Assembly: GCA_019113145.1 (NCBI GenBank)
Contig: DXHZ01000001.1
Span: forward strand, 1-32,779
Source of the DNA: Candidatus Avanaerovorax faecigallinarum
GTDB lineage: Bacteria > Bacillota > Clostridia > Peptostreptococcales > Anaerovoracaceae
Length of the DNA: 32,779 nucleotides
Direction: 5' to 3'
Shown here: positions 1-25,197 of the stretch, one piece after another
Layout: the number at the start of each line of letters is the position of its first letter
How positions within the stretch are numbered: position 1 is the stretch's first letter
Made by a program: the position numbers and the translations under genes
Notes under the pieces: generated by a model
What the model was told of the DNA's origin: nothing
The model's input: only the letters and a program-made list of their open reading frames with translations
Database searches by the model: none

Positions 1-88
1 TCCCTACGTTGGCATTACCCAAATCAGGTCACGGGTCAAAGCGGTCACGCTTACTCTCAGCCGGATTACACCGGCTCCCCAGTTTTAA
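1..88 (-). ncRNA. TPP riboswitch (THI box)
   Basis: Read on the minus strand, this stretch carries the conserved THI-box blocks in order: GGGGAGCC, then GGCTGAGAG, then a variable hairpin, then GACCTGATTTGGGTAATGCC and the closing GTAGGGA at the window edge. These are the thiamine pyrophosphate-binding segments of the family. The aptamer sits just after a good promoter (100-127) and reads leftwards, so it should control a thiamine synthesis or transport gene beyond position 1. The expression platform and the last bases of P1 may lie outside the window. Confidence 0.93.
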
Positions 89-99
89 GTTCCGTTAAC

Positions 100-169: not shown

Positions 170-463
170 TTACCCCAAAACCTTCTTTAAGTTGTCCCTG
201 TCCAGCTTTCTTTCTCTCAGTTGTTTTTCCAGCGATTTTCTCTTTGCAATCTGCTTCTTAACTTCGTCTACCTGTTCGGGCCTGATATATCTTGATTTTA
301 CCTTCCCGCCTTCGCGGTACTGGATATAACAGTACTCTTTTCCGTTTATTCTTTTCACGGAAATATAACCTCTTGGGAGGCTATCGATTTCAGCCTTAAG
401 GCTGTCTATTATCCTGCAGGAGCGTTCATACTCCTCATTCAGCACATCAAGCAGAATACTCAT
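170..463 (-). CDS. Small coiled-coil protein, DUF6788-like
   Basis: A 97-residue, highly charged protein of unknown function. Residues 1-28 look like a coiled-coil helix. A central beta-rich stretch (residues 30-62) contains LPRGYISV, NGKEYCYIQY and KSRYIRPEQ, followed by a second basic helix (65-95). This resembles DUF6788-type domains, where a GK-x-YYY strand precedes a YI/YV-x-x-E turn. The same layout occurs in the N-terminal 80 residues of the 258-residue nuclease-like protein at 22947-23723. The start is supported by GGAGGGG 6-8 bases upstream of ATG 463 and by a dedicated promoter at 495-523. It lies downstream of folBK but does not look like a folate enzyme. A nucleic-acid or regulatory role is only a guess. 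Confidence 0.75.
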   Translation of the reverse strand: MSILLDVLNEEYERSCRIIDSLKAEIDSLPRGYISVKRINGKEYCYIQYREGGKVKSRYIRPEQVDEVKKQIAKRKSLEKQLRERKLDRDNLKKVLG

Positions 464-494: not shown

Positions 495-523
495 ATTTTA
501 CATTCTTAACCTACATTTGTCAA
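495..523 (-). promoter_or_regulatory. Promoter of the 97-residue protein gene
   Basis: On the minus strand a perfect TTGACA (518-523) is followed after 17 bp by TAAAAT (495-500), about 32 bp upstream of the start codon. This is one of the strongest-looking promoters in the window. It separates the gene from the folate operon and overlaps the inverted repeat at 506-546. Confidence 0.75.
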
Positions 524-546
524 TTATATTCAAAAAGGTAGGTTAA
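506..546. promoter_or_regulatory. Inverted repeat straddling a promoter (operator candidate)
   Basis: TTAACCTAC (506-514) and GTAGGTTAA (538-546) form a perfect 9-bp inverted repeat with 23 bp between the arms. Arm centres are 32 bp apart, close to three helical turns. The -35 box lies between the arms and the promoter-proximal arm falls in the -35/-10 spacer. That geometry suits a repressor contacting two sites on one face of the DNA. A weak terminator for folBK is less likely because the arms are AT-rich and no T tract follows. Confidence 0.5.
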
Positions 547-22946: not shown

Positions 22947-23723
22947 TCACCTGAAATACGTTTCCATCAGATAATCTATAAACTGTGTATCTATATTTCC
23001 GTCCAGATCTTCAAACGTAAAGAACACATCCCTGTACGGCATATAACCCGCCTTAATGTACAGATGCACCTTCCACGCAAAATCATCACGGTACTTCCTG
23101 TTATACATCATCCCGAAGTGCTCCAGAAAAAGAACCTTCCCGTCACTTTCCCGATACACCGCAAAATCCGGAGCGATGGTCTCTCCGCAAAGCTCCGTCA
23201 CCTCCTCATATCGATACGGTATCCCCTTCATATACATCATATTTGCGATGTTGAGCTCAGACTTTGACCTCACGTAATCGCCCTTCATGGTAAGCTGCGA
23301 CGGATCCTCATACCTGCCGTAGCTGCTCTTTTTCATATACGGCGCATCTGCCCACGCCTCGCCGTCCGTAATTATGCTGCTCACCTCACTTATATATGCC
23401 TTCGGCAGTTTTCTCCGTATACTCTCCGGAGATACAGGCTGAAGAACTGCAAGAGTACGCAAAAGGCACGCCTCATCATCGCCTGCAGTTTTCAGCATTT
23501 CCTCCGCAAATCTCCGTTCCTGCAGCCGTTCGACCAGCCCGCTCTGTTTTCTTCCAATATATGTTGCCTTCCCCTCCAGCAGATGGTAGTAATATTTCCT
23601 TCCGTTCTTTTCGTCAACCTTCAGCTTTCCCTCCGGAAGATACTCCAGTCGCCTCAGGTATTCATCTTTTAAGTCTCTCAATCTAAGCAGTTCTCTCCTG
23701 ATGTGCGAGATAAGTTCTTTCAT
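22947..23723 (-). CDS. Nuclease-like protein: DUF6788-like N-terminus plus PD-(D/E)XK-type C-terminus
   Basis: A 258-residue protein I cannot name. Residues 1-80 contain a coiled coil, LPEGKLKV, NGRKYYYHLLEGKATYIG and a second basic helix, the same layout as the 97-residue protein at 170-463. Residues 85-145 form a linker. Residues 150-258 look like a restriction-endonuclease fold: YVRSKSELNIANMMY (E156), GIPYRYEE, APDFAVY (D186) and FLEHFGMM (E201), the pattern of many uncharacterised nuclease-like domains. Whether it cuts nucleic acid, and which, is unknown. It has its own promoter (23766-23794) and a GGAGG-like site. It converges with phzF. Confidence 0.75.
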   Translation of the reverse strand: MKELISHIRRELLRLRDLKDEYLRRLEYLPEGKLKVDEKNGRKYYYHLLEGKATYIGRKQSGLVERLQERRFAEEMLKTAGDDEACLLRTLAVLQPVSPESIRRKLPKAYISEVSSIITDGEAWADAPYMKKSSYGRYEDPSQLTMKGDYVRSKSELNIANMMYMKGIPYRYEEVTELCGETIAPDFAVYRESDGKVLFLEHFGMMYNRKYRDDFAWKVHLYIKAGYMPYRDVFFTFEDLDGNIDTQFIDYLMETYFR

Positions 23724-23765
23724 CTCTTCCTCCTCTACCTCAGTATCTTCGTTCTATATGGGAAT

Positions 23766-23794
23766 ATTTTACTGTTATTTTATTTCATTTTCAA
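23766..23794 (-). promoter_or_regulatory. Promoter of the nuclease-like gene
   Basis: On the minus strand TTGAAA (23789-23794), 17 bp, TAAAAT (23766-23771), about 43 bp ahead of the start codon, within an AT-rich tract. Confidence 0.7.
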
Positions 23795-23830
23795 TATAAA
23801 TTTCTATTTTTCTGTTGCCCGTGACTGAGG

Positions 23831-24041
23831 CTTTTTAGCGTTTCGACAAAGTTATCTGTTTCTGGAGGTTTTGCCGAAGCTTTTTCGGCTTCAAAGGTAG
23901 CATCTACAGATTTTGTCGAAATATCATCGCTAAAAACCTGCCCGGCCCGCTTACTTTTTCGGCAGATTTTGATTTCGCGTCAAAAAAGCCGAAAAAGTCT
24001 TCGACAACTTCCCGAAAAATACGGTTCGTTGTCGAAGACTT
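23831..24041. repeat. Array of three nested inverted repeats
   Basis: Three foldback units follow one another in a gap with no gene (23724-24063). Unit 1: TTTTTAGCGTTTCGACAAA (23832-23850) against TTTGTCGAAA (23912-23921) and CGCTAAAAA (23928-23936), with inner TCTGT/ACAGA and GCCGAA/TTCGGC stems. Unit 2: ACTTTTTCGGC/GCCGAAAAAGT (23953-23963 with 23988-23998), with inner TTTTGA/TCAAAA. Unit 3: AAGTCTTCGACAAC/GTTGTCGAAGACTT (23995-24008 with 24028-24041). The words TCGACAA, TTGTCGAA, TTTTTCGGC and GCCGAA recur, so alternative pairings are possible. Confidence 0.8.
23990..24041 (-). terminator. Likely terminator of wecA/tagO
   Basis: The third foldback unit, read on the minus strand, is a 14-bp perfect stem with a 19-base loop followed by TTTTT and, after CGGC, TTTTTT. 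It lies 23 bp past the wecA stop, where a terminator is expected. Confidence 0.7.
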
Positions 24042-24063
24042 CCTAAAAATCCTAAAATCAGAA

Positions 24064-25197
24064 CTACTTTTCGCTGTCAGCTCCCTCCTCCGCCGACGCA
24101 GCAGCCGCTTCCGCCGCCTGCTTCTTCTCTTCCTTGGCGATGTTTACAGCTTTGATGTGAGGCATCTTGTGGTTAGGGTCCGTCAGGAACACGTAAAGGT
24201 AGACGGCAGCGATAACCGCAAGGGCGCAGGCGTCTTTGTAGAGCTCGCGGCTTATGAGGACGGCGGCCATTCCCATAATGGCGCTGATGCCGTAGAGCAT
24301 GAGTACCGCCCTGCGCTGGCCGTAGCCTGCATCCATGAGACGGTGGTGAAGATGGCCTTTGTCCGCTTCCATGATAGGCTTGCGGTTTACGATGCGTCTT
24401 ACTATGGCAAAAGACGTATCGAAAATAGGAATAGCCAGAACCACCACCGGCACCACCACCGCAATCACGGTGGAACGCTTTAAAGGCCCGATAACGGAAA
24501 GAACCGCTATCATAAATCCGAGGAACAGCGCCCCGCCGTCGCCCATAAAAGTCTTGGCCGGTGAAAAGTTATACGGCAGAAATCCCAGGCAGGAGCCTGC
24601 CAGAGCCAGCATCGCCACGCATACGGTCGCCATTCCGAAGGTGTCGCCGTGAATATATGCGATATATGCGATGCACAGCGCCGCTATGGCCGAAGTCCCG
24701 GCCGCAAGACCGTCGAGGCCGTCTATGAGATTTATGGTGTTTGTGATGCCCACTATCCACAATACTGTAACTATGAAGCAGATGGCGTCGCTCAAAATCC
24801 AGTTGCCCGGCCCGAAATAGTTGTTTATTATGTTTATCCTGATGCCCATGGCATAAATCATAACCGCCACGGCTATCTGATATCCGAACTTTATCCCCGC
24901 GTGGAGATTTTTCAGGTCGTCCACGACGCCTAAGACGTATATCAGCGCGCCGCCCAGCATGGCAACGCGAATCTTCGGATCGTCCCACAGGAAAAGCCCT
25001 ACGGTTATCATGGTTCCTGCGAAAACCGCAAGACCTCCGAACCGGGGTATGGTTCTTCTGTGCATGCGCCGGCTGTCCTTCGGCACATCTACTGCGCCTA
25101 TCTTCGGCGCGATTTTTATGCTGAGCGGAGTGACGATAAATGCAATCATAAATGCCACGCCCAGAATCAGCAGAACACAGCGCAGTGTAATTTCCAT
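24064..25197 (-). CDS. Undecaprenyl-phosphate GlcNAc-1-phosphate transferase (WecA/TagO family)
   Basis: A 377-residue membrane protein with about ten helices that starts cell-wall polymer synthesis by putting a sugar phosphate on the lipid carrier. Family motifs are PRFGGLAVF, GVVDDLKNLHAG (metal-binding aspartates, near residue 90), ITNTINLIDGLDGLAAG (about 151-167), FMGDGGALFLGF and DKGHLHHRL (about 280-288). An Ala/Glu-rich tail (about 350-377) extends beyond the usual core. It follows the deaminase gene by 8 bp, with AGGAG before ATG 25197. It could serve teichoic acid, capsule or other glycan synthesis. Confidence 0.93.
   Translation of the reverse strand: MEITLRCVLLILGVAFMIAFIVTPLSIKIAPKIGAVDVPKDSRRMHRRTIPRFGGLAVFAGTMITVGLFLWDDPKIRVAMLGGALIYVLGVVDDLKNLHAGIKFGYQIAVAVMIYAMGIRINIINNYFGPGNWILSDAICFIVTVLWIVGITNTINLIDGLDGLAAGTSAIAALCIAYIAYIHGDTFGMATVCVAMLALAGSCLGFLPYNFSPAKTFMGDGGALFLGFMIAVLSVIGPLKRSTVIAVVVPVVVLAIPIFDTSFAIVRRIVNRKPIMEADKGHLHHRLMDAGYGQRRAVLMLYGISAIMGMAAVLISRELYKDACALAVIAAVYLYVFLTDPNHKMPHIKAVNIAKEEKKQAAEAAAASAEEGADSEK

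Follow-up and report, generated by a model that had tools for sequence, protein, structure and literature searches.

REPs and MITEs of other bacteria are mobilised by HUH or DDE transposases (PMC8266576, PMC3733652). In the RAYT (TnpA-REP)/REPIN "REPtrons" (PMC3116915, PMC8049555, PMC8266576, PMC3733652), each repeat family has one enzyme gene per genome, flanked by palindromic repeats, together with a dispersed, non-autonomous population of intergenic repeats; a genome can host several families side by side, each served by a separate enzyme; enzyme and repeats co-evolve, and the enzyme is inherited vertically. MITEs derived from insertion sequences are likewise short, non-coding, dispersed elements with inverted repeats that depend on a protein made elsewhere. 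Our analysis of 32,779 nt of Candidatus Avanaerovorax faecigallinarum (contig DXHZ01000001.1, positions 1 to 32,779; hereafter the window), and of related loci in its genus and taxonomic family, revealed an arrangement that resembles these systems in organisation, and that looks like a mobile-DNA system based on an enzyme type previously unlinked to such repeats.

An earlier note on the window, made from the DNA letters, had proposed that a small stand-alone protein shares its domain with the N-terminus of a nuclease-like protein. Both open reading frames lie exactly where that note placed them, and both are on the minus strand, which it had left unstated:

170..463, minus strand: P0001, solo protein of 97 aa; helix, three-stranded sheet, helix; DUF6788-like domain; putative DNA-binding autorepressor
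22947..23723, minus strand: P0002, nuclease gene, 258 aa; DUF6788-like N-domain and PD-(D/E)XK-type C-domain
23445..23723, minus strand: N-domain (residues 1-93) of P0002, putative recognition module for the word TTCGACAA
22950..23366, minus strand: PD-(D/E)XK-type nuclease domain of P0002 (E156, P185-D186, E201-H202, K218), from conservation, an AlphaFold2 model and weak profile matches

A single-sequence BLASTP comparison of the two proteins gives a weak match (E 0.005, 29% over 72 aa). The common domain is borne out by alignment of profiles built from 12 solo proteins and 13 nuclease N-termini (hhalign probability 98.4%, E 4.3e-15, 91 columns) and by AlphaFold2 models that have the same order of helix, three strands and helix: H3-27/E33-39/E42-51/E54-60/H62-96 in P0001 (pLDDT 94) and H2-27/E33-39/E42-49/E52-57/H62-93 in residues 2-93 of P0002 (pLDDT 93). 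On this sequence and model evidence, P0001 and the N-terminus of P0002 are homologous. A 96% identical copy of P0001 is found in another species of the genus (G116), and solo relatives are present in other genera. The closest Pfam family is DUF6788 (PF20586), which has no stated function; P0001 matches it with 18.5 bits (E 0.0023), under the curated cut-off of 27.2 bits, and 13 of 20 members (P0001 and 12 of its 19 relatives) match at E <= 0.1 (best E 2.9e-5), such that the likeness is sub-threshold for every member with a score shown. The three-stranded sheet followed by a helix is also the arrangement of the arm-type DNA-binding domains of integrases, from which the P0001 domain differs by its long flanking helices; 3jtz and 3rmp were among the weak, non-significant matches of a fold search with P0001 (E about 0.5).

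The same N-domain occurs in about ten P0002 paralogues per genome and is also fused to AAA_14 ATPases, with one such fusion in this genome; it is thus a widely reused module. At one fusion locus (L044:4978-6855), a protein of ~625 aa combines the N-domain with the AAA_14 ATPase, and a 19-nt perfect inverted repeat lies over the promoter; similar fusions are found in other genera. Given the word TTAACCTAC, repeated in inverted orientation at the promoter of the solo gene, and the word-bearing nuclease loci described below, the helix-sheet-helix domain is most likely a sequence-specific DNA-binding module, and we consider it probable that the P0002 N-domain binds its own word.

The C-terminal part of P0002 is predicted, from conserved residues and its AlphaFold2 model, to be a PD-(D/E)XK-type nuclease. 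The three residues that the earlier note had picked out hold up across 52 homologues: E156 and E201 are invariant, as are K218 and R152-S153, and D186 is at least 90% conserved, along with P185 and H202. The model has the alpha-beta3-alpha-beta order of PD-(D/E)XK enzymes (the alpha-beta-beta-beta-alpha-beta core with acidic residues), with E-H as the third motif instead of E-x-K. The domain has weak matches to TPD, DUF790 and Vsr, and a phage endonuclease model matches it at E 6e-4. Searches with P0002 in Pfam, NCBIfam and PHROGs, and of the PDB by sequence, returned nothing useful, and a whole-chain Foldseek search of the PDB gave no significant match. No relative was detected on the viral contigs searched; four phage records with partial matches are all short, unannotated contigs. 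Of 199 genomes sampled from the taxonomic family, 105 have at least one P0002 relative.

P0002 sits ~115 bp downstream of a palindromic element, which we call A:

23766..23794, minus strand: promoter-like TTGAAA-17-TAAAAT of the nuclease gene, 10/12 consensus bases
23840..24049, minus strand: miniature interspersed element A, ~210 bp, three hairpins; the copy adjoining P0002, with dispersed copies elsewhere
23842..23849, plus strand: word TTCGACAA, copy 1
23913..23920, minus strand: word TTCGACAA, copy 2
24000..24007, plus strand: word TTCGACAA, copy 3
24029..24036, minus strand: word TTCGACAA, copy 4

All four exact copies of TTCGACAA in the window fall within element A, with inverted words near both of its ends. 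In the window alone, a count of four is no higher than in shuffled sequence; the significance of the word comes from the dispersed copies of the element. Element A occurs at six further places in the same genome (best E 4e-51) and in three sister species. The aligned copies have conserved ends (AGGAAGTCTTCGACAA...TTTGTCGAA[G/A]C), and their flanks are unrelated except in orthologues; the copies away from P0002 are complete units, mostly in intergenic gaps, none with a nuclease gene or its remnant. RNAalifold predicts three hairpins, with two-sided changes in just 2 of 37 pairs, too few to tell folded single strands from double-stranded protein-binding palindromes. Described structured RNAs were ruled out as the identity of the repeats, since five loci searched with their repeats match no Rfam family but a tRNA.

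Pairing of a nuclease gene with its own repeat is a recurrent feature of the genus, for which we sampled four draft genomes (G000, G043, G158 and G116). Five nuclease genes each adjoin a different dispersed palindromic repeat family (A, A', B, E and K2), often with copies on both sides. In this genome, solo copies of E lie at 12 places, and for B there are four strong solo sites plus weaker, partial ones; K2 has two solo copies in the sampled G158 DNA. Within 481 kb sampled from this genome (26%, partly biased towards already known sites), dispersed flank copies were seen for just three of ten nuclease/ATPase loci (A, B and E). In a second genus (G098), the repeat beside one nuclease gene has more copies on a different contig; the L016 repeat of G185 has almost no dispersed copies, so the pattern is non-uniform outside the genus. 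Intergenic DNA beside many nuclease genes contains inverted copies of a locus-specific word. When 7-mers were counted in the 500 bp on each side of the gene, the top words (GGCTGAC 15 times, GCGGGCC 12, CATCGAA 10, GCGTCCC 10 and AGGTCAA 8-9) compared with a maximum of 4-5 in dinucleotide shuffles. Direct or inverted repeats of 120-260 bp bracket several of the genes.

Within the genus, the word has changed together with the N-domain at P0002 itself. The change is confined to one block:

23357..24120, minus strand: element, promoter and N-domain; sharp difference from G043

In comparison with G043, the flanks and the nuclease domain are mostly 92-100% identical, versus largely 35-65% from 24120 to 23357. 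G043 and G158 both have TTCGATG/CATCGAA as their word, along with the alternative type of N-domain. Between the window and the G158 locus (L045), the nuclease domain is 97% identical and the N-domain 49%, a divergence ratio of 20 (range for 13 other orthologue pairs, 0.6-7), and TTCGACAA is replaced by TTCGATG. A second candidate pair (L064/L047) is weaker, leaving one clear case; as a single event, the switch is strong but non-statistical evidence. The G043 sister copy of P0002 (L057:4870-5651) is frameshifted, and A'-type elements are still present in that species. G043 also holds six A elements, mostly vertically inherited, without an A-type nuclease. In G116, the window's locus (L100:5196-5284) has no nuclease; a fragment with TTCGACCTCA-type words adjoins the glycosyltransferase gene, and the gene order differs beyond that region.

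We propose that the N-domain of P0002 would bring the PD-(D/E)XK-type nuclease to the inverted TTCGACAA copies that compose the 210-bp palindromic element. The nuclease gene would then be the single "autonomous" partner of a dispersed, non-autonomous element population, and the enzyme would cut at or near the elements, leading to their copying or relocation in a manner similar to RAYT/REPIN systems, with an unrelated enzyme. DNA binding, cleavage and mobilisation by P0002 are what we infer from this arrangement; for the specific step of promoting copying or relocation, we judge the case for and against to be about evenly balanced.

A different enzyme, such as a RAYT or IS transposase encoded elsewhere, could instead move the elements, with the nuclease merely binding them, either to regulate its own gene or because the host has adopted it as a nucleoid or repair factor. 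HUH and DDE transposases do this for REPs and MITEs in the bacteria cited above. Consistent with this view, several nuclease loci are orthologous and syntenic across the four genomes, having been retained vertically, and several have weak or no word clusters within 500 bp, among them the L042 and L043 groups. These two groups are orthologous paralogues kept across the genus, and are possibly host-adopted copies. Nonetheless, a foreign transposase would leave unexplained why five nuclease genes pair with five element families, often with copies on both sides, and repeat counts tend to peak in genomes that have an intact copy of the cognate nuclease: for A', 26 matches were counted in G158, whose nuclease of this family is intact, versus 6-10 elsewhere. 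We therefore regard mobilisation by another enzyme as unlikely, though it is the alternative that best survives.

Comparison of orthologous sites shows that the elements are polymorphic. One gap holds an A element in both G000 and G043, whereas its orthologue in G158 has none; at locus D, three species have a nuclease and G116 has a solo E element in its place; and the L066 site of G116 corresponds in G000 and G043 to the remnant of a nuclease gene together with a solo B element. One E-element site is occupied in G158 by a different word-rich element. Gaps in which one species has an A or E element and another has a different word-rich element (L141:2553-2900 and L135:3130-3460) suggest insertion hot spots. 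We sought target-site duplications and exact ends at several occupied/empty pairs, and none could be defined there; for the absent site in the L116/L136 comparison, this is because the flanks are too diverged.

In another reading, solo elements would be dead remains similar to solo LTRs, with repeat-gene-repeat composites transposing and recombination between direct repeats then removing the gene. Direct repeats do lie on both sides of the genes in L039, L045, L016 and L023, and there are gene relics at L086 and L106. This scheme fits poorly with a single gene copy per family against up to 12 solo copies, with the inverted orientation of the family B flanking repeats, between which recombination cannot delete the gene, and with the completeness of the solo A copies; we consider it improbable.

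Still less probable, in our view, is that the nucleases are anti-phage or anti-plasmid effectors, with decoy or regulatory sites at their own loci and the repeats secondary. In each of the 52 members, the nuclease domain matches the C-terminal end of a candidate defence protein, PDC-S68 (E down to 4e-38), and UvrD-helicase proteins on plasmids also match this domain. However, the PDC-S68 match is confined to the last ~120 residues of a profile of ~1200, the rest being unmatched; the loci read showed no sign of a defence island nearby, the genes being isolated among housekeeping genes; and defence would not lead one to expect dispersed intergenic copies of one word cluster.

The solo gene has a word of its own, and its promoter region contains the following:

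495..523, minus strand: sigma-A type promoter of the solo gene, TTGACA-17-TAAAAT, 11/12 consensus bases
506..514, plus strand: operator-like word TTAACCTAC in the promoter spacer, copy 1 of two in 481 kb
538..546, minus strand: inverted second copy of TTAACCTAC, upstream of the -35 box, copy 2 of two in 481 kb

These are the only two copies of TTAACCTAC in the 481 kb sampled. In other genera, solo and ATPase-fusion relatives mostly have inverted pairs of AACCTACA, AACCAACA, TTACCCCACA or related words at their own promoters, and an inverted repeat is present at the promoter in most of 22 such cases. The simplest reading of these sequences, and the most likely one, is that P0001 is a putative autorepressor that would bind the inverted TTAACCTAC sites over its own promoter. 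Downstream of P0001 and likewise on the minus strand, a TPP riboswitch aptamer (window 1-91, cut by the window start) presumably controls a gene outside the window.

The earlier note had suggested that the solo and nuclease-fused forms share a target or act as regulator and effector. The presence of both forms, with a common domain and fold, in one genome stands, but we think it highly improbable that they are a regulator and an effector with one common target, since the words differ (TTAACCTAC for the solo promoter, TTCGACAA in the DNA near the nuclease gene), the proteins are not found as a pair across genomes (G043 and G158 have nucleases and no solo homologue, and G036, G058, G111 and G122 are among genomes with a solo copy yet outside the nuclease-match set), and the nuclease is one of about ten paralogues that carry a domain also found on ATPases. 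The explanation as a whole, in which a word-reading domain serves as a solo autorepressor and guides a nuclease that serves its own miniature elements, we hold to be somewhat likelier right than wrong.

The likeness of this system to RAYT/REPIN is one of organisation only, since the defining HUH transposase is absent: a Y1 domain (PF01797-type) has no Pfam match in P0002 and is not among the families listed for 51 homologues. The enzyme is instead a PD-(D/E)XK-type nuclease with a DUF6788-like domain, the elements are ~210-250 bp with several words rather than the 20-40 bp of REPs, and the GTAG or CGTC tag found at the hairpin base in RAYT/REPIN systems is absent from an alignment of 15 A copies. 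The elements differ from MITEs in having many internal inverted words beyond terminal repeats; there is no DDE or HUH transposase relative here, and no target-site duplication was found. PDC-S68 and the UvrD-type helicases that end in a nuclease (PADLOC) have a nuclease domain homologous to that of P0002, in proteins of ~1200 aa, whereas that of P0002 is joined just to a small DUF6788-like domain. A literature search, which covered few subscription papers and preprints, found no description of such a nuclease-repeat pairing. We tentatively suggest, with slightly less confidence than we have in the explanation above, a new class of mobile DNA: ~200-bp palindromic elements moved in trans by a stand-alone PD-(D/E)XK nuclease, with an interchangeable DUF6788-like domain that sets the family, several nuclease-element pairs in parallel per genome, about ten at most, and specificity switched by replacement of one block. 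If this is correct, a domain that recurs in solo regulators, nucleases and ATPase fusions would gain a likely function, the reading of DNA words; the nuclease-word pairs would be a natural set from which to learn its recognition code; and one could test where many of the unexplained palindromic repeats in the intergenic DNA of Firmicutes come from. An arrangement similar to RAYT/REPIN would then have evolved independently in bacteria with another kind of enzyme.
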